DNA of 64,000 bases from an uncultured Mediterraneibacter sp. (GTDB taxonomy: Bacteria > Bacillota > Clostridia > Lachnospirales > Lachnospiraceae): contig CALWLJ010000012.1 in assembly GCA_944381495.1 (NCBI GenBank), positions 1 through 64,000 on the forward strand, in the 5' to 3' direction. Position numbers and translations under genes: made by a program. Of the stretch, positions 18,938-59,403 are shown in pieces. The notes below the pieces were generated by a model. That model was not told where the DNA came from, made no database searches, and saw only the letters and a list, made by a program, of their open reading frames with translations. Every line of letters starts with the position of its first letter. Position 1 is the stretch's first letter.

Positions 18938-19086
18938 GGAACAAGTTACGCCGCTTCTGCCATATCGGTACGGAGCGGCGGTCTTGTTGTATAACAGAAA
19001 AATAATATTCTGGACCGAACCTTTTGACTGTGTTTTACGACTATATGAGTGAAACCGGCTTTAGTACAAAACAAGGAGATGACGAT

Positions 19087-20370
19087 ATGGATCAGTTTGA
19101 AAAATTGCTTTGTGAGCACAAGAGTGCTGTCGAACGCTTTGTAAAGTTCAAACTGCCGTCAAGTTTCGATGCCGATGATATATTGCAGGAAGTATACATG
19201 GCTGCGATTCGTAATTTTGATAAATTGAGCGATGAATCCAACTTCAAGGCATGGATTATTGGTATTGCCCGTAATAAGTGCAACGACTATTATCGCTTCC
19301 ATGCAAGATCAATGGAAATTCCCCTTGAAGAGGTCAGTGAAACAGAGCTTTCTCGCGGACGGATGGGAATAACGGAAATAAACTGTGTTCAAGACACTTT
19401 GGATTGTCTTTCTGAAAAGGATAAAGAAGTGCTGCACTTATATTTTTTCTGTGATGTACCGCAGGCTGAGATCGCAAAGAAGCTTCATATACCGCTTGGA
19501 ACGGTCAAAAGCCGTTTATATACCGCAAAACAGAATTTCAAAGAGAAATATCCATATCCGCCTAAAACGAAAGGAGAGGTTATTATGAAAAAGCTGCCTC
19601 GGTTCATGCTTGAATATGTAATATCAAAATCGGAAAACCAACCGTTTTCTGTCATTTGTGAAGAACTCATGGGCTGGTTTCTTATACCAAAGCCTGGAGA
19701 AAAGCTTTCATGGGGAGTATATGGCATGCCTGAAAGAAAGCTGGCAGAATCGAACGAAATGGAAGTCATCGGCAAGGCAGAAGTTCATGGAATTGAGGGC
19801 GTCGAAATTACAGTGAAAACGAGTAATCCGATGGAATATAATTCTGAAGGCGGTCAAAAGAACGTATCAAGAACATTTGTGGCGCAGCTGACGGATACGC
19901 ATTGCCGCTATCTGGCAGAAAGCCATATGAAAGACGGCGTGAAACATCTTTATACCTTTCTTGATGGCGACAGCTTTCTTGGGAACTGGGGGTTCGGGGA
20001 GAATAATTGCGGAAACGAAATACATATTTCTTCCAAAGGTGACATTATACGCGAGGAAAGCGTGATTACAACTGTAAATAAGCCGTTTCTGCTCGACATT
20101 GCAGGACGTTTTTATGTGACAATTGGCGGGAAAGAATATGATACAGTATGTGTAATGGATATCGAAACCTATAACCCAGGTGTAGTCAGCGAGCAATACA
20201 TTGATCAAAACGGACGCACGATTCTCTGGCGCCGTTTCAACCGTGATGATTGGGCGTATAACCACTATAAGGAGAAATGGAGCGAAAAGCTTCCATACAA
20301 CGAGCGCATTACTGTAAATGGCGAAATCTATGTCCATTGGTATGATTGTATAACAGATTATATTTTGTAA
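19087..20370 (+). CDS. ECF-like sigma-70 factor fused to a C-terminal domain of unknown function
   Basis: 428 residues from ATG 19087 (RBS AAGGAG 19073-19078). Residues ~1-160 are an ECF sigma factor: region 2 (FDADDILQEVYMAAIRNF, FKAWIIGIARNKCNDYYR) and region 4 (LSEKDKEVLHLYFF, AEIAKKLHIPLGTVKSRLYT). A ~260-residue soluble domain follows, starting MKKLPRFMLEYVISKSE, rich in beta strands and ending VHWYDCITDYIL. I do not recognise it. The junction contains an internal ATG at 19585 preceded by AAAGGAGAGG, an ideal RBS, so the C-terminal domain may also be made on its own. Large C-terminal extensions in ECF factors often sense a signal. No anti-sigma gene is visible nearby. Confidence 0.8.
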   Translation: MDQFEKLLCEHKSAVERFVKFKLPSSFDADDILQEVYMAAIRNFDKLSDESNFKAWIIGIARNKCNDYYRFHARSMEIPLEEVSETELSRGRMGITEINCVQDTLDCLSEKDKEVLHLYFFCDVPQAEIAKKLHIPLGTVKSRLYTAKQNFKEKYPYPPKTKGEVIMKKLPRFMLEYVISKSENQPFSVICEELMGWFLIPKPGEKLSWGVYGMPERKLAESNEMEVIGKAEVHGIEGVEITVKTSNPMEYNSEGGQKNVSRTFVAQLTDTHCRYLAESHMKDGVKHLYTFLDGDSFLGNWGFGENNCGNEIHISSKGDIIREESVITTVNKPFLLDIAGRFYVTIGGKEYDTVCVMDIETYNPGVVSEQYIDQNGRTILWRRFNRDDWAYNHYKEKWSEKLPYNERITVNGEIYVHWYDCITDYIL

Positions 20371-20431
20371 ATTTTTATCTGCCCGGATTTAGGAAGCGGT
20401 GGCGCCGGAAACCTGAGAACAAACTCCCCTC

Positions 20432-20460
20432 TTTACATCCCGCCGCCCATCCCTTATACT
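20432..20460 (+). promoter_or_regulatory. Promoter of the jetABCD operon
   Basis: TTTACA (20432-20437), 17-bp spacer, TATACT (20455-20460), placing the start point near 20467 and a ~30-base leader before jetA. No operator-like palindrome is evident. Confidence 0.65.
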
Positions 20461-20496
20461 GCTTTTATAGGCGATCAGCCAATGGAGGGCAGAAGG

Positions 20497-21987
20497 ATGC
20501 AGGTGACGGAGAAACTTACAAGGCCTCTTACAGAAGCAAAGTATTTAAATGCGGATAATGCGGACCGATACCGGAGCATTATGCGCATTTTTTATGAAAA
20601 TTATGAAAAACTGCGATACTGGATGTATCAGGAGGAAGTCTACGCGGAGATGACGGCGGATCCTTATTTCGCTGATTACCGGATGGAGCAGTGCCAGCAG
20701 GATCTTGCCATGCTCACAGAATGGAAGAATCTGAACACCATCCAGGACACCCGCCGGGTTTCTTCCATTGAGGAGTTCAAGAATAAGAAGTTCCGGTATC
20801 AGATGTCAGAGTACAGCGTAGAGATCGAACGTCTTGTGATCCGGCTGGAGAATCTTTTCGTGGAGGGAGCGTCTCTGGAACCTGCTCTCTTGGAGCGGAT
20901 CCGGATCAATGTGGAGAAATTCCCGGCAATGGACGGGAAGGATCCTGAGACAGTGTACGGCTGGTGGAATGACCTGAACAATGATTTCATCCGCCTGAAC
21001 CAGAATTACCAGGACTATATCCGGGATCTGAACAGCGTGAAAGCGGAGGAAATGATGCGGACCCGCCAGTTCCTTGTGTTCAAGGACAAGCTGGTAGAGT
21101 ATCTGAGGAACTTTATCAAAGGACTCCAGAAGAATGTGGGAGTGATCGAGGAGACGCTCCGGATGCTGGATCCGGAGCTGCAGATGCGGGTGCTTGACCT
21201 GGTAAATGACTATGAGATGTCTATCCCCAGGATGGATGTGGAAGTTTCCCGGGAGATGATTGAAGAGAAGACGAGAGGGAGATTTGACAGCATCAGAAAG
21301 TGGTTCGTCTCGGAAGGCGGTCAGGAGAATGAAGCAGGCCGGCTCTTTGACGCCACCAACGAGATCATACGGAGGATCACCCGGTATGCGGCCCAGCTGA
21401 GTGAGAAGAACGCTCTTGGGGCCAATCGGCGGGAAGAATACAGAAAAGTGGCGGAGATATTTCTGAAATGCAGGGATATGGATGAGGCGCACCGTATGGC
21501 GGCCATGGTGTTCGGACTGGAGCGGCCTTTTCATCTGAAGATGACTGCTGACCGGATCACGGACAGCATGAACCAGAGCGTCTATGAGGAACCGGCTGCG
21601 GAGATGACACTGAAGCCAAGGGTACGGACTTACCGGGAGAAGTCAGGAAGGACCTCGATCCATGATTCTTCCGTGGAGAAACAGCGCGCAAGGCAGCAGG
21701 CGGTGGAACAGATGAAGAGAGACTGGGAGAAACTGGCTCGGCTTGAGCAGGACGGCAGGATCGATTTCCAGAGTCTCCCCGTGATCGAGCCGAGAGTCCG
21801 CGAGATCCTGCTGAAATGGCTGTCGGATGCTTTGGAAGACGCAGATCATTCTGCAAGGACAGAGGATGGACGGGAGTTTGTCCTGGATATGTCCCGTGCT
21901 GATGAGCAGTGTGTGGTACACTGCGAGGACGGGAACTTTACCATGCCGAAGATGAGTATTGTATTTCAGGAAGGAGAAGGGCGATGA
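20497..21987 (+). CDS. jetA: Wadjet type II JetA (TIGR02677 / DUF2397-like)
   Basis: 496 residues from ATG 20497, which has GGAGGG at 20484-20489; an ATG at 20482 lacks an RBS. The sequence fits TIGR02677: the opener TEAKYLNADNADRYRSIMRI, winged-helix-like stretches (YRMEQCQQDLAMLTEWKNL, RRVSSIEEFKNKKFRYQM) and a helical middle. In SMC-type complexes this is the kleisin-like subunit that bridges the JetC heads (role inferred from Wadjet and MukF/MksF homology). The stop overlaps the jetB start by four bases (ATGA). It is first in a four-gene set whose order, TIGR02677-02678-02680-02679, is canonical for type II Wadjet. Confidence 0.88.
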   Translation: MQVTEKLTRPLTEAKYLNADNADRYRSIMRIFYENYEKLRYWMYQEEVYAEMTADPYFADYRMEQCQQDLAMLTEWKNLNTIQDTRRVSSIEEFKNKKFRYQMSEYSVEIERLVIRLENLFVEGASLEPALLERIRINVEKFPAMDGKDPETVYGWWNDLNNDFIRLNQNYQDYIRDLNSVKAEEMMRTRQFLVFKDKLVEYLRNFIKGLQKNVGVIEETLRMLDPELQMRVLDLVNDYEMSIPRMDVEVSREMIEEKTRGRFDSIRKWFVSEGGQENEAGRLFDATNEIIRRITRYAAQLSEKNALGANRREEYRKVAEIFLKCRDMDEAHRMAAMVFGLERPFHLKMTADRITDSMNQSVYEEPAAEMTLKPRVRTYREKSGRTSIHDSSVEKQRARQQAVEQMKRDWEKLARLEQDGRIDFQSLPVIEPRVREILLKWLSDALEDADHSARTEDGREFVLDMSRADEQCVVHCEDGNFTMPKMSIVFQEGEGR

Positions 21988-23138
21988 GAGAGCTGGAGAC
22001 ATTGCTTGACCGGAGATGGGTTCTGAAATCCGAGGACAGGGAGCTCTACTATAGGATCAGAGACTCTATCGGTGAGATCCGGAAGTTTGCCACAGAGAAA
22101 ATGGGCTGCCAGGTGATCGAAAATGCGCTTCTGGTAAAGATGGAGAAGATCCCGGCTCTGCCGGAGAGCTTTATGGGGATCGATGTCTTTACATCGAAGG
22201 AGGAATATGCCTATCTCTGCATCCTTCTTATGTTCCTGGAGGACCGGGATGCCCAGGGGCAGTTTATCCTCTCCCAGCTTACGGAGTATATTGCCGCAAA
22301 TATGCCTTCCGGGGAAACGGACTGGACACTGTACACCAACAGAAGGCGGCTTGTGAAGGTCCTGCGGTACGCCGTGGATCAGGGGATCATACGGGTGACG
22401 GACGGAAGCGATGATGCTTTTATGGATCAGGAGACAGGAGAAGTGCTTTATGAAAATACAGGGGCGTCACGGTATTTTATGAGAAATTTCAGCCGGGATA
22501 TCATGGAGTTTACCGCTCCGGAGGACTTTCAGGAGAGCGACTGGTTCGCCATGGACGAAGACCGGGGGATCGCGAGGCGGCACCGTGTGTATAAGAGGCT
22601 TCTTTTTTCTGTTGGTATGTACCGCGGCGAAGGTGCGGAGGAAGATTTTGAATATCTGAAATATTACGGAAGAAGGCTGGCGGATGATCTGGAACAGAAT
22701 TTCCAGTGCCAGCTCCACATCCACAGGGGAAGCGCATTCCTGATGCAGGGGGAGGACTGCCGGATCGGAGAGACATTTCCGGGAAATACCGGGATGTCGG
22801 ATATCCTTCTGCTCTGCTGCGGAAAGATCCGCGAGAAGGTGGAAAAGGGAGAATGGACGCCGGAGAAGGATGATACGATTCATGTCCAGAGTCTGGAATT
22901 CCAGCAGATGCTGCGCCAGGTAAAAGAGGAGCATGGAGCCGGATTTATCAAGGGCTATCGTGAGATGCCGGAGGGAGAGTTTGTCCGGGAAGTGGAGTCG
23001 GAGATGGAGCGTTGGACGCTGATCCGCAGGAATATGCAGGAACAGACGGTGATCGTATATCCGTCAGCGGGGAAACTGACAGGACGTTATCCGGACGACT
23101 ATGACGGGAGCAGCGGAACGCGGACAGGAAAAGCATAA
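21984..23138 (+). CDS. jetB: Wadjet type II JetB (TIGR02678 / DUF2398-like)
   Basis: 384 residues from ATG 21984 (RBS AAGGAGAAGG 21971-21980), translationally coupled to jetA. Family-like segments: LLDRRWVLKSEDRELYYRIR, YAYLCILLMFLEDRDAQGQF, RRLVKVLRYAVDQGIIRVTD and EVLYENTGASRYFMRNFSRD. The expected role is the KITE-type (winged-helix, MukE/MksE-like) subunit of the SMC complex. The C-terminal ~40 residues are polar and low in complexity. The product is soluble and cytoplasmic. An 83-base gap separates it from jetC. Confidence 0.88.
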   Translation: MRELETLLDRRWVLKSEDRELYYRIRDSIGEIRKFATEKMGCQVIENALLVKMEKIPALPESFMGIDVFTSKEEYAYLCILLMFLEDRDAQGQFILSQLTEYIAANMPSGETDWTLYTNRRRLVKVLRYAVDQGIIRVTDGSDDAFMDQETGEVLYENTGASRYFMRNFSRDIMEFTAPEDFQESDWFAMDEDRGIARRHRVYKRLLFSVGMYRGEGAEEDFEYLKYYGRRLADDLEQNFQCQLHIHRGSAFLMQGEDCRIGETFPGNTGMSDILLLCCGKIREKVEKGEWTPEKDDTIHVQSLEFQQMLRQVKEEHGAGFIKGYREMPEGEFVREVESEMERWTLIRRNMQEQTVIVYPSAGKLTGRYPDDYDGSSGTRTGKA

Positions 23139-23221
23139 GGCAGTGCTGACGGCAGCTTTCCAGAGAAATATAAGATTTTCGAGAATATAAGAGAAAATAA
23201 GCGGAGGAGAATACACAAAAG

Positions 23222-26200
23222 ATGAACAGCAGATGGCAGGCGAGCAAGATCGGATTGATCAATTTCTGGTATTATGATGAGCAGGAATTTCCTTTTGTAA
23301 AGGGGAGAATGCTGCTGAGAGGCTCCAACGGTTCCGGAAAATCCGTTACCATGCAGAGCGTGATCCCTCTTCTTCTGGACGGGAACATGAGCCCGGAGCG
23401 TCTGGATCCCTTCGGGTCCCGGGACAGGAAGATGAGCAGTTATCTTCTGGAGGAGGACGACGGCAGGGAGGAGCGGACCGGATATCTGTATCTGGAGTTC
23501 AAGCGGGAGGAGAGCGATACCTGGCTGACCATAGGGATGGGGATCCGTGCCCGGCGGGGAAAACCTCTGGACAAGTGGTACTTCAGTCTGTCGGACGGCA
23601 GGAGGATCGGGAAGGATTTCCAGCTTTATAAGAAGACGGATGAGAAGGTGACCTTGTCTAAGAAGGAACTGGAGAACCGGATCGCCGGAGGTGGGCAGGT
23701 ATTCGACCGCCAGGCCGACTATATGGAATATGTGAACCGGCAGATTTTCGGCTTTGAGACAGTGGAAGAGTACAAGGAGATGATCGATCTGCTCATCCAG
23801 CTGAGGACGCCCAAGCTGTCCAAGGACTTCAAGCCTTCTGTGGTCAATGATATCCTCAGCGATTCTCTCCAGCCTCTTTCAGACGAAGACTTAAGGCCCA
23901 TGTCCGAGGCTATTGAAAACATGGATACCATGAACATGAATCTGAAGACACGGGAAGCCGGACTTCAGGCGGCGGAAAAGATCCAGAAGGTCCTTGGCCG
24001 GTATGACCGTCTTGTCCTTTTTGAAAAGGCAGACCGGTGCGTGGAGAACGGGGAAAAACTGTCCGCTGCGGAGAAGGAAGCCGGCGAGCAGGAGGCTGAG
24101 ATCCGGAACTGTACCGAGAGGGTGCAGGCGCTGGAGCAGGAAAGGGCAGACCTTGACGCCCGGAAGGAAGCTATGGAGAAGGAGAGGGACTCCCTCAGCA
24201 AGAGCGATGCGGTAGAGCTGAAGAGCCGGGAGATAGATCTGAAAAACCGCATCAGAGACAGGGAATCTCTTCTGGAGGAAAAGACCCGCCAGCTTGAGGC
24301 GAAGCAGGAACAGTACGTGGAGACAGAAGACCGGAGGAAGAAGGATCAGGACCGGGAGTATGAGAAGGAGAAGGAACTGGATGAGATCCTGGAGGACATG
24401 CAGTCAGAAGCGGAAGATATGGCGTTTGACGAGCATGCATTTTTCCAGACGGAGCTGAAAGAACATTTCGCGGAAGAGTATTCCTGGGATACGCACCAGT
24501 CTCAGTTTGAGAAGACAAGGGACGGGATAAGCCGGGGACTGGAGCTGCTCCGGGAAGCGGAGTCCCGCCAGAGAGAGGCGGACGATCTCCTGAAGAAGCG
24601 GGAAAAACAGCAGAGGGAGACAGACGGGGCACAGCGCCGGGAGAACGAACTGGAGGCGGTCCTGGTCCAGGTGGAAAATGAATGGAAGGAAGCAGTCTAC
24701 AGCTGGAACGGGAATAATACAGAGCTGAAATTCACTCCGGAGCAGATGCGGGTTCTGTCGCAGTTCGCGGATGAGTACGGGGAGGACTCGGATTTTGCCC
24801 TGGTGAGACAGATGGCGGCGGACCTCTGGATTGGTAAGAGCGGCAGCATCCATGTGCAGATCCAGGAGAGGCAGAAGGAGCTGCGGGAACGGGAAGACGA
24901 GCATGAAAATATCCTCGCGGAGCTGAAAGAATGGGAGGACCACAGGGAGCCGGAACCGTCGAGAAGCGAGGCTGTGGTGAAGAACAGAGAGCGACTGCGG
25001 GAAAAAGGGATCCCGTTTGAGGAGTTCTATAAGTCGGTGGAATTCGGGAAAGGACTGGATAAAGAAAGTTGTGACAGGCTGGAGGAGGCGCTTCTGGAAA
25101 TGGGGATTCTGGACGCTCTTGTTGTGGAAGAGCAGTACCGGGACAGAGTGCTGGAAGCAGATCCCGGCTGCGCGGACAGGTATCTCTTTGTCCGGCCGGG
25201 GCATGTGAAAGAGAGCCTGCTGGATGTGCTGGATCTGAATGATTCTGTAAACGACATTTTCTTTAACCAGCGGATCACAGGAATCCTTGGCAATATTGGC
25301 TGGATACAGGGAAATAGCGATGAAGGCTCCGCTGCCACGGCGGTCTACAGGGACGGTTCTTATCAGATCGGGGCTGTCAGCGGTACGTTGTCCGGAGAAT
25401 ATGAAGCAGGCTTTATCGGCGTCCGTGCCAGAGAGCAGAACCGTCAGGCGAAGATCGCTGCCTGCCGGGAGGCGTTGGCGGAAAATGAAAGCCGCCAGGC
25501 GGTCCTTCATGACGAGATCCGGGAGCTGGAAAGCCGTACTGCCAGACTCCGGGAGGAATACGAAGCTCTGCCGGCGGATACGGATATGCGGGAAGCCTGG
25601 AGGATGCTCTCGGATATCAGACGGACAGTAGAGCGGATGCGGGAAGAATGTGCGAAGCTGGAGCAGGAGCTGAGAGAAGTCAGCGAGTCGCTGAAGGAAC
25701 TGAGAAGGCAGGCCGCAGAGATTGCCCAGGGGCTGTATCTGACATGCAGCTATGAGGTTTTTCTCAGGGCGGATCAGGCTGCCAGAGACTATGGACAGCA
25801 TTATTACCAGTTGAAGTCCGGCCATGAGCTTTATCTGCAGATCCATGCTCATCTGGCTGAACTTGGGGAGAGGCTGGAAGTCCTGGACGGGGAAATGGAT
25901 CAGATCCGGTATGAGGCGGGCAACGCGGAGCGCGAGCTGAAAAAGGAGCAGGAGGAATACCAGTCTGTACAGAAGCAGCTGGAACTGACAGACTATGAGC
26001 AGATCCGCCAGAGGCTGGATGAGTGTATGGAATGGCTGCAGTCCTATCCCCGGCGGCTTCAGGAGTGTGTGGAAGAGAAAACGCAGAAGCAGGAACGGGT
26101 ACGCGCCCTCAGAGAGCTGACCGCGCGGAACGAAGAGCGGATCGCGGAGCTGCGTCGCAGGGAAACATGGCTTGACAGATGCTTTGAGGCGGAGCGGGAA

Positions 26201-27337
26201 CTGAAATATGTGGAACTCCCGGAAGAGATATCCGAAGCTGCCGCTTCTGTACGGAACTATCTTGCAGCGGACTGCCGTGAGCTGGACAAAGAGCAGATCA
26301 TCCGGAATCTGAACCAGGTCTACTTTGAAAACAGGGGATTCCTGACGGATTATCAGATCATGCAGACCGAGCTGTTCAGTGATCTGGATCAGGACGCACA
26401 GAGAGGCGATCCGCCGGCAAAGCGTCTGGACATCGCCGCCCGGTACCAGGGCGTGCGGATACCGTTTGGCAGTCTCCTGGTTCATCTGAAAGAAGAAATC
26501 GAAGAACTGAAGGATCTGATCCGGGACGGAGACAGAGAGCTTTTCGAGGATATACTGGCCAACACAGTGAGCAGGAAGATCCGGGGGAAGATCAACAGCT
26601 CCAATGCCTGGGTGGAGAAGATGAATTCTCTGATGGGAGCCATGAATACATCCAGCGGGCTGAAGCTGAACCTGCGCTGGAGGAGCCGGACCGCGGAGAC
26701 GGAGGACCAGCTTGATACGAAGGAACTGGTGGAACTCCTGAAAAAGGACTACCGGCTTATGCGGGAGGATGAGGCGGCGAAGCTGTCTGCCCATTTCCGG
26801 TCAAAAGTAGAAGAGGCGAGAAGACACGCCAGAGACAGCGGCGGTATGATCTCCTTCTATCAAGTGATGAAAGAAACGCTGGATTACAGGAAATGGTTTG
26901 AGTTCCAGCTGTTCTTCCAGAAAGGCGGCGAGAAAGTGCGGGAGCTGACAAACAGCGTCTTCGGAACATTCAGCGGTGGAGAGAAGGCTATGGCCATGTA
27001 CGTTCCCCTCTTTTCCGCCGTAGTAGCGAAATATGCGGCCGCCCGCCCGGATGCGCCCCGCCTGATCTCCCTGGATGAGGCGTTTGCCGGAGTGGACAAC
27101 CGGAATATCCGGGATATGTTCCGTCTGATGACGGAGTTCCGATTTGACTTTATCATCAACTCACAGGTACTCTGGGGCGACTGCGACACGCTGGACGCGC
27201 TGGCAATCTATCAGCTGATCCGTCCGGAGAACGCGAAGTTTGTGACTGTTATGCCCTATCTGTGGAACGGACATTCCCGAGTCATGCTGGAGGATGAGGC
27301 TGAGATGGAGGAGCGAGCTGCCGAGACGGCTTCGTAA
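23222..27337 (+). CDS. jetC: Wadjet type II JetC, SMC/SbcC-like ATPase (TIGR02680)
   Basis: 1371 residues. The opening RWQASKIGLINFWYYDEQEF and Walker A LRGSNGSGKSVT (~30-42) are textbook TIGR02680. PERLDPFGSRDRKMSSYLL follows. Long coiled coils occupy ~260-500 and ~730-1000, separated by a hinge-like globular region (~590-730). The C-terminal head has the ABC signature FSGGEKA (~1250) and Walker B LISLDEAFAGVDN (~1281). This motor is expected to extrude plasmid DNA loops for recognition of small circular DNA. RBS GGAGGAG lies at 23202-23208. Full length for the family, with no frame breaks, so it looks functional. Confidence 0.93.
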   Translation: MNSRWQASKIGLINFWYYDEQEFPFVKGRMLLRGSNGSGKSVTMQSVIPLLLDGNMSPERLDPFGSRDRKMSSYLLEEDDGREERTGYLYLEFKREESDTWLTIGMGIRARRGKPLDKWYFSLSDGRRIGKDFQLYKKTDEKVTLSKKELENRIAGGGQVFDRQADYMEYVNRQIFGFETVEEYKEMIDLLIQLRTPKLSKDFKPSVVNDILSDSLQPLSDEDLRPMSEAIENMDTMNMNLKTREAGLQAAEKIQKVLGRYDRLVLFEKADRCVENGEKLSAAEKEAGEQEAEIRNCTERVQALEQERADLDARKEAMEKERDSLSKSDAVELKSREIDLKNRIRDRESLLEEKTRQLEAKQEQYVETEDRRKKDQDREYEKEKELDEILEDMQSEAEDMAFDEHAFFQTELKEHFAEEYSWDTHQSQFEKTRDGISRGLELLREAESRQREADDLLKKREKQQRETDGAQRRENELEAVLVQVENEWKEAVYSWNGNNTELKFTPEQMRVLSQFADEYGEDSDFALVRQMAADLWIGKSGSIHVQIQERQKELREREDEHENILAELKEWEDHREPEPSRSEAVVKNRERLREKGIPFEEFYKSVEFGKGLDKESCDRLEEALLEMGILDALVVEEQYRDRVLEADPGCADRYLFVRPGHVKESLLDVLDLNDSVNDIFFNQRITGILGNIGWIQGNSDEGSAATAVYRDGSYQIGAVSGTLSGEYEAGFIGVRAREQNRQAKIAACREALAENESRQAVLHDEIRELESRTARLREEYEALPADTDMREAWRMLSDIRRTVERMREECAKLEQELREVSESLKELRRQAAEIAQGLYLTCSYEVFLRADQAARDYGQHYYQLKSGHELYLQIHAHLAELGERLEVLDGEMDQIRYEAGNAERELKKEQEEYQSVQKQLELTDYEQIRQRLDECMEWLQSYPRRLQECVEEKTQKQERVRALRELTARNEERIAELRRRETWLDRCFEAERELKYVELPEEISEAAASVRNYLAADCRELDKEQIIRNLNQVYFENRGFLTDYQIMQTELFSDLDQDAQRGDPPAKRLDIAARYQGVRIPFGSLLVHLKEEIEELKDLIRDGDRELFEDILANTVSRKIRGKINSSNAWVEKMNSLMGAMNTSSGLKLNLRWRSRTAETEDQLDTKELVELLKKDYRLMREDEAAKLSAHFRSKVEEARRHARDSGGMISFYQVMKETLDYRKWFEFQLFFQKGGEKVRELTNSVFGTFSGGEKAMAMYVPLFSAVVAKYAAARPDAPRLISLDEAFAGVDNRNIRDMFRLMTEFRFDFIINSQVLWGDCDTLDALAIYQLIRPENAKFVTVMPYLWNGHSRVMLEDEAEMEERAAETAS

Positions 27338-27411
27338 AATGATGTTGGAAGCAAAGCCACAACTATGAACCGCAAAAGAGATGATAATTTTTCAGGAAAG
27401 GAGCGGACTCA

Positions 27412-28818
27412 TTGACAGATGAAATGCTGAAAAAAGAGTGTCTGGAATATTTCCGGGCTCACCCGGTCTTCCGGCGGCTGCTGGAGGGATTCCGGGAAAA
27501 GTATGCTTCTTATGGAAGATTCGCGGGAACCGTGGTGCTGAAAAGTCTGACAGAAGAGGAGCGGGATGATCTGGAAGGATTCCTGAACAGGAATTATCAC
27601 GGGAAAAAGTCTGCTTCTGTCTCGGCTGAGCGGTTCGAAAAAGCGCTGTCAGAAAGCCGGTTCGCGGGGATCAGCGGAAGAGATGTGCTGGAATTATATT
27701 TCCATGCAGCCCCGGAGGGCAGACAGGAACGCAGGCAGCGGGAGGCAGAACAGTGGAAGGAGATGCTCCGGCGGGCGGAAGAAGCCGCGGAGCGGATGGA
27801 AGGAGAGAAAGCTGATCGGGAAGATGTGGACCTGATAGAGACAGCCGGAAATACGGGACTGGAGCAGCAGACGTCTTCCCTGCCCCGGCTGTGGCTGCAG
27901 GAGATAGATGGTTTCCTGCCCTATCTGAGGAAACGCTGCCGGGAAGCAGGCGGTGATCTGAATGAAGTACAGCGTCTTCTCCTTCTGGGAGTGAAGCTCC
28001 TGAACGCGCTCCCCGCCGATGCGAAATATCTGGCTGTGTTCGCTGCTGAGGTGACCGGTAATCCCCATGCTTTTGATGCCGGCACAAAGGATGGAAAGTA
28101 CCTGGAGCTGCTGGTTAGATGGTATTCAGAAAAAGAAACAATAGAAGGAAAAATAGAAGGAACATCTGAGCAGGCAGCTGACAGAGACGGCAGGGCATTT
28201 CCGCTCATAGAAAAGCAGAGGATGTATCTCAATGCAGGCATCCTCCGGGACGATGTGTCAAACTATGCCCTGGCAGCAGGTATCCGTGCGTGGAAAAAGG
28301 ACGGCAGCCTTCATGAGGGGATGGAAGGCTTTTTCAGGGCCGGGGAACCGGTTCAGATCCCTCTTTCCGTGATCGCCGGATGGAAATCCATATCCTGTCC
28401 GGGAAAACGGATCTATATTGTGGAAAACCCTTCTGTTTACGCCATACTCTGTGGAAAATGGAAGAAATACTGCGGGTTGATGTGCATGAACGGCCAGCCC
28501 CGGCTGAGCTCTCTGCTCATACTTGATCTCTTGGCAGAGGCCGGCACAGAAGTGTGGTACGCGGGAGACCTTGATCCCGAAGGTCTGCTGATCGCCCAGA
28601 AACTCAGGCAATATTACAGAGGAGACTTCCATTACTGGCACATGTCGGCAGAAGACTACAGGAAAAGCATCTCCGCAGAACAAATATCTGATAGACGTCT
28701 CAAGATGCTGGAAAAGATCACAGATCCCGATCTGACAGAGACAGCGGCCGCAGTAGCCGGGAAAAAACTGGCCGGATATCAGGAGAACATATGGCAGGAG
28801 TATCTCGGAGCTGTTTAG
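27412..28818 (+). CDS. jetD: Wadjet type II JetD, toprim nuclease subunit (TIGR02679 / DUF2399)
   Basis: 468 residues. The best start is TTG at 27412, eight bases after AAAGGAG (27397-27403); the next ATG (27424) is too far from that site. The N-terminal half matches the DUF3323-like region. The C-terminal half is DUF2399 with toprim-fold motifs: IVENPSVYAIL (~338, catalytic Glu) and WYAGDLDPEGLLIAQKL (~382, the DxD equivalent). In Wadjet this subunit is related to topoisomerase VI A and cleaves the DNA trapped by the SMC complex (known for type I; inferred here). The last gene of the operon, it is followed 20 bases later by a palindromic element that may also end transcription. Confidence 0.88.
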   Translation: MTDEMLKKECLEYFRAHPVFRRLLEGFREKYASYGRFAGTVVLKSLTEEERDDLEGFLNRNYHGKKSASVSAERFEKALSESRFAGISGRDVLELYFHAAPEGRQERRQREAEQWKEMLRRAEEAAERMEGEKADREDVDLIETAGNTGLEQQTSSLPRLWLQEIDGFLPYLRKRCREAGGDLNEVQRLLLLGVKLLNALPADAKYLAVFAAEVTGNPHAFDAGTKDGKYLELLVRWYSEKETIEGKIEGTSEQAADRDGRAFPLIEKQRMYLNAGILRDDVSNYALAAGIRAWKKDGSLHEGMEGFFRAGEPVQIPLSVIAGWKSISCPGKRIYIVENPSVYAILCGKWKKYCGLMCMNGQPRLSSLLILDLLAEAGTEVWYAGDLDPEGLLIAQKLRQYYRGDFHYWHMSAEDYRKSISAEQISDRRLKMLEKITDPDLTETAAAVAGKKLAGYQENIWQEYLGAV

Positions 28819-28838
28819 TTCAGTTGTTTTCGTAGGCC

Positions 28839-28978
28839 GCTGTCAAGGCGCTATGTTGCCCCGGCGGCCGCGCTCTCGCTCGGAGCATAGCGCAGCGGAT
28901 ACGTAAGGCCGCAAAGGACGCGGCCAAAGTGCCGGCGCTCTGCTACGGGCCTTCGTGACAACACAGCGCCTTGACAGC
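28839..28978. repeat. 140-bp palindromic intergenic element (full copy of dispersed GC-rich repeat)
   Basis: Ends are 20-bp inverted repeats with one mismatch: GCTGTCAAGGCGCTATGTTG (28839-28858) against 28959-28978. The interior is very GC-rich with further self-complementary stretches, and no ORF. Partial copies occur at 877-912 and 13984-14035. It looks like a REP- or MITE-type element that needs a transposase in trans. It lies directly behind jetD. Confidence 0.75.
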
Positions 28979-29081
28979 TGGATACCGAGAGACGGCTGAA
29001 CAGTCCCGTAAATTGGCGCAGCTTGGAGATCTTACCATTTGGAAGACTTCCCGGTTGCGCCTTTGTTTTCCTGACTGTATG

Positions 29082-29410
29082 GCCACTGACTTCCGCCCTG
29101 AACAGACCAGAAAACAGAGCTGATCTCGAAAACTTTTCTGCGGGGGTAGAGATGGCATACGGGTGACTTCGGAAGGGTATTAGTTAATCTTAGAGTTCCG
29201 GGGACAGACGTTAGGGCTGGCGGTGAAATTGTCTGAGCCGAAGGCGAGTTGTTCACCGCCAGTCCTTGCATTTAGTCTGTCCCCGGAACTCTTAATTTAA
29301 CTTATATCCCTGGAGCGGAACCCGTATGCCATCTCTACCCCCGCAGAATACGGTTTGGAACAGTTCTGTTTTCGGATGTTTAATCACTGAAGTTAGTGCG
29401 CTAAACAGCC
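29082..29410. repeat. ~330-bp nested palindromic element (copy 1)
   Basis: This stretch is homologous, in opposite orientation, to 58207-58531. It is itself a nested hairpin: a perfect 27-bp arm (29137-29163 with 29321-29347), a perfect 18-bp arm (29192-29209 with 29275-29292) and an inner CTGGCGGTGAA/TTCACCGCCAG arm (29217-29227 with 29252-29262). Short antisense ORFs in it are by-products of the repeat. The remaining bases from 28979 to 29081 and 29411 to 29500 show nothing else except a weak AT-rich promoter region before the GH3 gene. Confidence 0.85.
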
Positions 29411-29500
29411 AGACAGCGGACCTTCGAGAATAATATCGTAATTCCTTTTGTATTGTGCTAAAATAGAGTCAGATTTCAGTCAGACCGGAGGAACGGAATT

Positions 29501-32014: not shown

Positions 32015-32136
32015 ACGGAACCGGTGCTTTTTCTCTGCAATCGTGGTATGATAGAATTAGCATTGATAGAGCAGAGACAGTACAATGCATGGATTCCTGA
32101 ATAATATGTTCAGATATGGAAAGGAAGGTCTTTATT

Positions 32137-58181: not shown

Positions 58182-58206
58182 CAGGCCGGAATATAGTGAA
58201 CTGTAC

Positions 58207-58531
58207 GGCTGTTTAAATCACTAACTTCAATGATTGAATATCCGAAAACGGAGGATTTCTAAAACGTATTCTGCGGGGATGGAGATGGCGTACGGGCTCC
58301 GCTCCAGGGTATAAGTTAAAACTAAGAGTTCCGGGGACAGACTAAATGCAAGGACTGTCGGTGAACAACTCGCCTTCGGCTCAGATAATTTCACCGCCAG
58401 CCCTAACGTCTGTCCCCGGAACTCCAAGTTTAACTAATACCCTTCCGAAGTCACCCGCCCACCATCTCCATCCCCGCAGAAAGGTTTTCGAGATCAGCTC
58501 TGTTTTCTCGTCTGTTCGGGAAGTCAGTGGC
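58207..58531. repeat. ~330-bp nested palindromic element (copy 2, inverted relative to copy 1)
   Basis: Matches 29082-29410 in reverse orientation with scattered differences. The inner arm AGAGTTCCGGGGACAGAC (from 58324) pairs with GTCTGTCCCCGGAACT (from 58409). The outer arm (about 58267-58293 with 58456-58484) is less perfect than in copy 1. Its far edge coincides with the last codons of the degV-type gene on the minus strand. The ORF running rightward through it is a by-product. Confidence 0.85.
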
Positions 58532-59403
58532 TATTTAGTCTCAAACAATATCCCAAGCGTATTCGGTCCGCAGTGGCAGGAGATTGTGCAGCTGGCTTTC
58601 GTGATATGGATCTCTTTAAAGTGCAGAGTCTCATCTACGGTTTTCTTTACCAGATCGATATATTTCTGCGGAATGCCGGAGTGCGTGATAAAGAGCAGAT
58701 CTGTATTGATATTCTCATATTTGCTCAGTTCATCTTTTACATATTTCTCAAGCACTTTGTCCAGCGCGCCTCTGTATTTCTTCCCCAGACCCATGCTGCC
58801 GTCATGATTGTCCACCTGGATGCAGGGCTTGATCTTCAGAATATTTGCTCCCAGAGCGGCGAGGGAAGAGCAGCGTCCGCCGGCGCTTAAAAAGGTAAGT
58901 GTATCGAGAATAAAGCTTGCATGACACTTTCCGGTATGCTCCCGAAGGGCTTTGGCAATAGAATCCGCGTCCATGCCCTGTCGGATCATCCTTCCTGCGG
59001 CGATGACCATAAGCCCCATTCCGGTAGAGAGGTTGCAGCTGTCCACTACATGAACATGTCCCAGCTCCTTTGCTGCGATGCAGCAGTTCTGGTAAGAGCT
59101 GGAAAGAGCACTTCCGAGATTAATGTGGATGACCTCATATCCGTCCTCCACCCAGGGACGGAAGTGGTCGATGTATTCCTGGGCGTTAACAGCGGCGGTC
59201 TTGGGCAGGACTTTGTGGGCGTAGTATTCCTGATAGACTTCTTCCGGCGTGATGTCCACATTGTCCCGGTATTCTTTGCCGTTCAGGATAATGTGCAGCG
59301 GAAAGTAGTTTACGTGATATCGTTCTTTTAAGTCTGTGTCCAGATCACAGGTGCTGTCGGCGCTCAGGATGATCTTCTGTGTATTCTGTATTTCTAATGG
59401 CAT
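58531..59403 (-). CDS. DegV family fatty-acid-binding protein
   Basis: 290 residues from the ATG at 59403, which has GGAGG (complement of 59411-59415) at good spacing; an upstream frame to 59511 lacks an RBS. DegV hallmarks are IILSADSTCDLDTDL at the N-terminus, FPLHIILNGKEYRDNVDITP, TAAVNAQEYIDHF, INLGSALSSSYQNC and VVDSCNLSTGMGLMV. DegV/FakB proteins bind a fatty acid for phosphorylation by FakA. No fakA is present. The last codons lie at the edge of the palindromic element, but the C-terminus looks complete. Confidence 0.92.
   Translation of the reverse strand: MPLEIQNTQKIILSADSTCDLDTDLKERYHVNYFPLHIILNGKEYRDNVDITPEEVYQEYYAHKVLPKTAAVNAQEYIDHFRPWVEDGYEVIHINLGSALSSSYQNCCIAAKELGHVHVVDSCNLSTGMGLMVIAAGRMIRQGMDADSIAKALREHTGKCHASFILDTLTFLSAGGRCSSLAALGANILKIKPCIQVDNHDGSMGLGKKYRGALDKVLEKYVKDELSKYENINTDLLFITHSGIPQKYIDLVKKTVDETLHFKEIHITKASCTISCHCGPNTLGILFETK

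Follow-up and report, generated by a model that had tools for sequence, protein, structure and literature searches.

A predicted type II Wadjet (JetABCD) anti-plasmid operon in an uncultured Mediterraneibacter, with a structured repeat at its 3′ end

Background

Does a four-gene locus in the chromosome of an uncultured Mediterraneibacter sp. (Lachnospiraceae) encode a complete type II Wadjet (JetABCD) system directed against plasmids, or another machinery built around a structural maintenance of chromosomes (SMC) ATPase? The locus occupies positions 20482–28818 of the forward strand of the window, i.e. the whole 64,000-nucleotide stretch analysed here, which corresponds to positions 1–64000 of contig CALWLJ010000012.1 (assembly GCA_944381495.1, a 3.19-Mb genome in 39 contigs). 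A sequence-only reading of this DNA had proposed a complete type II Wadjet operon; our sequence and fold tests bear this out, and we consider, with a probability of about 0.93, that the locus is a chromosomal type II Wadjet anti-plasmid system, whose activity in its host would be that of its homologues.

In Wadjet systems, JetABC dimers are reported to extrude circular DNA, which JetD cuts after extrusion is completed (PMC12647877, PMC10586767). Type II had been described in the sequence-only reading as far less studied, which holds in part; both a structure (PDB 9qe0, 9qe1) and in vitro cleavage have nevertheless been published for the Wadjet-II complex of Neobacillus vireti (PMC12647877). 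According to that report, the complex was reconstituted as (JetC2JetB1JetA1)2 and cleaves naked circular DNA, its hinge is channel-less, unlike that of the Escherichia coli type I system, and tethered circles are cut only at the anchor. In Clostridium cellulovorans, deletion of jetABCD increased conjugation by about five orders of magnitude (PMC12287153); that paper draws a comparison with the system of Bacillus cereus Q1 and nowhere uses the terms “Wadjet type” or “Wadjet-II”.

A complete type II operon

Compared with the TIGRFAM and PADLOC Jet models, all four proteins matched the expected families, of type II. As read from the sequence alone, TIGR02677, TIGR02678, TIGR02680 and TIGR02679 follow one another in the canonical order jetA-jetB-jetC-jetD, on a single strand with all frames open, and each exceeds its curated NCBIfam cut-off, with 341.4 bits for JetA (cut-off 165.85), 182.2 bits for JetB (124.65) and 829.6 bits for JetC (462.85), the score of JetD being considered below. 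Pfam domains agreed with these assignments (DUF2397 in JetA, DUF2398 in JetB, SbcC_Walker_B in JetC, DUF3323 and DUF2399 in JetD). In PADLOC, type II models outscored those of types I and III for every subunit, the best models being JetA2 (686.9 bits), JetB2 (477.7), JetC2 (1553.5) and JetD2 (411.6). All matches of JetA were to JetA2 (7/7) and all those of JetB to JetB2 (5/5), neither protein giving a type I or III match at E ≤ 0.001. For JetC and JetD, the highest type I scores were 98.5 bits (JetC1) and 27.7 bits (JetD1).

Against the nearest relative, dN/dS ratios (Nei–Gojobori method, NG86) were 0.048 for jetA, 0.043 for jetB, 0.070 for jetC and 0.130 for jetD, hence the operon appears to be under purifying selection. 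The jetB ATG (21984) and the jetA TGA (21985–21987) overlap as ATGA, as had been noticed earlier, and gaps of 83 bp and 74 bp separate jetB from jetC and jetC from jetD, respectively. The promoter, previously described as clear, is the top-scoring of 14 promoter-like sites in 20300–29500 (shuffled sequences: mean 5.3, sd 2.4), and is kept in a sister genome (G201, introduced below) although the DNA farther upstream differs. Translation of jetA probably starts at the ATG at 20497 rather than at the first ATG of the frame, since a Shine–Dalgarno-like GGAGGG (20484–20489) precedes it, the JetA of 9 of 18 relatives aligns from exactly residue 6, and the first ATG is a GTG in the sister.

The catalytic motifs are intact in both enzymes. 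JetC carries the Walker A, signature and Walker B motifs expected of an SMC ATPase, and its hinge is predicted to be of the Wadjet-II kind from the modelled fold. In JetD, the Toprim residues, whose absence on alignment had been named as one observation that would overturn the reading, are present: E338, G361, D386 and D388 are invariant across the 65 aligned JetD. The predicted JetD fold resembles topoisomerase VI A, Spo11 and type I JetD (Foldseek search of the model). No tyrosine column is invariant within JetD residues 155–335, the best reaching 47/65, the topoisomerase catalytic site not being mapped residue by residue. By sequence, phmmer recovered no JetD relative from the PDB (sole match at E 0.81, unrelated), a further search gave a weak Spo11 match (E 0.039) beside helical or unrelated proteins, and no JetD-II structure was found there by these searches. 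JetD linkers were hypervariable among homologues, proteins of at least 400 aa spanning 410–666 aa with long, charged, low-complexity inserts (e.g. L027:9345–11345). Altogether, the completeness of this type II system is supported by family models, gene order, motifs, purifying selection, homology of JetABC to Wadjet-II and the predicted JetD fold. The coordinates of these features are collected in Table 1.

Table 1. Coordinates of the operon, its motifs and the adjoining repeat in the window
Feature	Position	Strand	Remark
Sigma-70-type promoter TTTACA-17-TATACT upstream of jetA	20432..20460	+	10/12 consensus positions
jetA, kleisin-like subunit (DUF2397, TIGR02677)	20497..21987	+	open reading frame opens at 20482, likely start 20497
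jetB, KITE-like subunit (DUF2398, TIGR02678)	21984..23138	+	4-bp overlap with jetA
jetC, SMC ATPase (TIGR02680), 1371 aa	23222..27337	+	
JetC Walker A GSNGSGKS, residues 34-41	23321..23344	+	identical octapeptide in 48/67 JetC
JetC hinge region	24914..25486	+	fold nearest to Wadjet-II hinge of 9qe0
JetC ABC signature SGGE, residue 1251	26972..26983	+	present in 67/67 JetC
JetC Walker B region LDEAF, residue 1284	27071..27085	+	searched pattern found in 60/67 JetC
jetD, CAP/DUF3323 plus Toprim (DUF2399) nuclease, TTG start	27412..28818	+	stop codon within end of inserted repeat
JetD Toprim Glu E338 (VEN motif)	28423..28425	+	65/65 aligned JetD
JetD Toprim DxD, D386 and D388 (GDxDP motif)	28567..28575	+	65/65 aligned JetD
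Repeat module 1, structured, covarying element of ~150 nt directly 3′ of jetD	28816..29004	+	not Wadjet machinery
Repeat module 2, ~400-nt long imperfect palindrome	29007..29412		many genome copies; not Wadjet machinery

Comparison with known systems

JetA, JetB and JetC match the solved Wadjet-II complex of N. vireti LMG 21834 (nvJET; 9qe0, 9qe1), with a hinge identity of ~ 32%; JetD is known here from a predicted model alone. The operon shares with type I Wadjet (E. coli GF4-3, Pseudomonas aeruginosa PA14 JetD 7til, Corynebacterium glutamicum MksG 8b7f) the four-subunit logic and the JetD/topoisomerase VI-A-like fold, but its proteins match type I models weakly or not at all. By the features tested, the operon belongs to Wadjet type II and is an ordinary case of it.

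The sister operon belongs to Candidatus Mediterraneibacter stercoripullorum CHK195-1396 (loci L050 and L119), with 96% identity for JetA and JetB, 93% for JetC and 88% for JetD, and 89.2% DNA identity over 8,410 bp. Both operons are flanked by the same genes, i.e. ABC exporter, TetR and DUF6442 genes on one hand and a GH3 gene on the other. Upstream, however, the sister carries a Uma2-family gene and a copy of repeat module 1 in place of the extracytoplasmic function (ECF) sigma gene of the window; downstream, its jetD–GH3 gap is 48 bp, without the composite repeat, and its JetD tail is longer.

Distribution and gene neighbourhood

JetC exceeded its cut-off in 12 of 58 genus genomes, and sub-threshold pieces (82–352 bits) were found in four more (G156, G158, G172 and G199), while 13 of 150 family genomes gave a JetD match at E ≤ 0.001, four of them over cut-off (own genome included in the 12 and in the 13). 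Among 74 named loci, all four genes occur in order in 62, some of them partial, and the remaining 12 run into contig ends. JetC identity to ten congeners was 76.6–79.5% for seven, 93% for the sister, 46% for L049 and 41% for L058, and reached 76% in Catenibacillus scindens, outside the genus. This pattern, together with varying neighbourhoods, fits horizontal spread, as read from these identities.

Decayed Wadjet-II loci were also observed in relatives, with jetB and jetC in one fused frame after an apparent deletion (L058:8872–12582) or jetC in two open reading frames (L021:3057–7124), as were JetD-like fragments (L026:14365–14913, L028:10291–10749) in fetched stretches of ~ 19 kb that lack jetABC.

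Flanking genes were clustered across the 74 loci, 63 with an upstream and 60 with a downstream gene, and the 14 largest clusters were considered. A fifth, accessory gene was rejected, none recurring widely, and the ECF sigma gene (19024–20370) was rejected as a regulator of the system, since the sister operon, though otherwise syntenic, lacks it. The largest cluster gathered 12 loci at positions scattered over both sides and strands, and looked like ABC ATPases by eye (4 of 13 members inspected); aside from it, no cluster among the 14 occurred in more than four Lachnospiraceae loci. A 10-locus cluster, an opposite-strand gene upstream of jetA, was restricted to Anoxybacillus/Geobacillus (L167–L171, L180, L181, L185, L187, L190), where the two sequences inspected look coiled-coil and differ in repeat number. 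Among congener neighbours, PADLOC (10 genes) and Pfam (8 genes) disclosed no linked system, but TelA, VWA, SEC-C, AraC and similar proteins. The exception is a Uma2-type candidate defence protein (PADLOC PDC-S03; L050:4965–5528) lying upstream of the sister operon at the position of the ECF sigma gene.

No clean empty site was found for the operon in 11 fetched GH3 loci, whose neighbours differ: a homologue of the window gene at 32116 lies directly upstream of the GH3 gene in six of them, and the DUF6442 gene in none. The GH3 gene is present in 33 of 58 genus genomes at E ≤ 1e-100 (own genome and paralogues included), and the DUF6442 gene in 6 of 58 (own included).

A structured repeat at the end of jetD

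The gap after jetD is filled by a two-module composite repeat, the end of which supplies the jetD stop codon. The composite gave 60 blastn matches in the genome, a count including the query itself and inverted self-matches, and is nearly whole at six places, where the modules are fused in the same order; a second copy of module 2 lies at 58201–58540 of the window, on the minus strand. A model of module 1 (R1), for which 27 of the 36 distinct copies served as input, yielded 60 genome matches among 150 scored of 627 candidates, many of the weaker ones being the same places on the other strand, and 28 of the 60 were full-length (E ≤ 2.4e-25). Beyond this genome, module 1 extends to 39 of 58 genus genomes (blastn) and 45 of 120 family genomes (R1), own included in both.

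The consensus fold of module 1, a palindromic element interspersed in the genome, displays compensatory double changes at 34 of 50 pairs, in an alignment of related copies with no shuffled control, the inner loops being conserved and the outer stem rewritten by these changes. Arm exchange within an inverted repeat could be the source of such paired changes, without any RNA function. As a single strand, the window copy folds on both the plus (z −5.0) and the minus (z −6.4) strand, so that energy does not settle its orientation. Among 17 copies of the genome, the 151-nt core begins at most 40 bp after a same-strand stop codon in eight, the others lying elsewhere, some near 5′ ends; two of the 17 (L073 and L074) have the same distances to their flanks and could represent a single place that was duplicated. 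Copies of module 1 include L050:5753–5903, L061–L079 and L194–L212. Module 2, as a single 406-nt strand, folds at −236.5 kcal/mol (z −19.9). Neither module matched Rfam 15 at gathering score; animal microRNA matches, all in module 2 and far below that score, were put down to chance similarity with a long hairpin. A narrow literature search returned no name for such a repeat family in Lachnospiraceae.

Just upstream of the jetA promoter, window positions 20396–20429 are likely the remnant edge of a module-1 copy, which is complete at that place in the sister. With this remnant on one side and the composite at the jetD 3′ end, the repeat has thus reached both sides of the operon. Tentatively, the element at the 3′ end of jetD might belong to a family of mobile structured elements, so far undescribed and spread across the Lachnospiraceae, with a ~ 150-nt hairpin core that keeps its loops while paired changes rewrite its outer stem. 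Such elements would act as transferable 3′-untranslated region/stop modules: they would set where the mRNAs upstream end, and perhaps how stable these are, in this case for the Wadjet nuclease gene.

Discussion

The operon holds every part that the Wadjet cycle would require, and motor activity, size sensing and cleavage are proposed here by analogy with its homologues. Two JetC with one JetA, as the kleisin, and one JetB, KITE-like, would form a motor, and two motors would pair into a dimer. After loading on DNA independently of sequence, the dimer would use ATP to reel in loops; where the DNA is a small circle, both motors would exhaust it, meet and stall. JetD, until then an autoinhibited dimer, would be released by the stalled complex and would hydrolyse both strands at its Toprim metal site (E338, D386, D388). 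The large chromosome and linear DNA would be spared. With its type II hinge fold, the complex may be unable to pass a large DNA-tethered obstacle, like N. vireti JET.

The plasmid record offers an independent line that agrees weakly with the targeting of small circles: among 72,556 PLSDB records, JetC relatives (E ≤ 1e-30) occur in 11, all of at least 148,985 bp. The smallest, a circular 149-kb plasmid of Alicyclobacillus dauci (L223, NZ_CP104065.1), encodes members of the four TIGR families in order; its Wadjet-II operon adjoins a PemK/MazF toxin gene and a cas12b whose annotation is split over two coding sequences.

Several points weigh against a working anti-plasmid system. The score of JetD for TIGR02679 (202.2 bits) exceeds its cut-off of 196 by only 6 bits, and the TM-scores of its model are modest, at 0.22–0.41 over the query for the eight Foldseek matches at E ≤ 0.001. 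Its tail differs from that of the sister owing to the repeat insertion. In PLSDB, 9 of the 11 matches cover just 17–66% of JetC, 8 of the 11 are from Streptomyces with topology unchecked, and the count is uncontrolled for a bias of long operons toward large plasmids. Streptomyces plasmids may be linear. Finally, a plasmid-exclusion test in the genus was uninformative, Rep_1 (PF01446) being found in 0 of 58 genomes and the control giving no match either.

Among other explanations, an SMC nuclease aimed mainly at other circular DNAs, such as circular phage replication forms or excised integrative elements, survives best, although we regard it as improbable. It overlaps the favoured mechanism, from which its target alone differs; the mechanism is reported to sense shape rather than sequence (PMC10586767), and the published plasmid range is a laboratory readout, but our analysis offers no direct evidence for such targets and the published Wadjet phenotypes consulted are plasmid restriction, as in the C. 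cellulovorans deletion (PMC12287153). It is highly unlikely that the operon is complete yet non-working, for instance through the altered JetD tail or a lack of expression. The repeat insertion at the 3′ end of jetD and the broken Jet loci of relatives (L058, L021) would agree with such a loss; against it stand the four open frames, the invariant catalytic residues, dN/dS of 0.04–0.13 and the conserved promoter, and the replaced tail lies beyond the last invariant residue of JetD, E458, and contains none itself. Least probable of all, a MukBEF-like housekeeping condensin organising the chromosome, with JetD serving repair or decatenation, would suit the SMC nature of JetABC and the contribution of a MksBEF relative to chromosome organisation (PMC10586767), but is opposed by the patchy distribution of JetC and JetD, by flanking genes that vary between loci, by a second SMC-like open reading frame (1138 aa) on another contig, and by a score for SMC_prok_B, the housekeeping bacterial SMC, of 25.1 bits against a cut-off of 567.35.

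Read as a type II Wadjet system, this locus contributes an intact operon from gut Lachnospiraceae, and the named isolates Mediterraneibacter catenae, M. glycyrrhizinilyticus and Catenibacillus scindens carry relatives. Two questions become testable with it: do type II hinges share bypass-incompetence as a rule, and is activation tuned by the widely differing lengths of JetD linkers? Such an operon could also account for the poor plasmid uptake of some strains, as the reported clostridial Wadjet suggests (PMC12287153).
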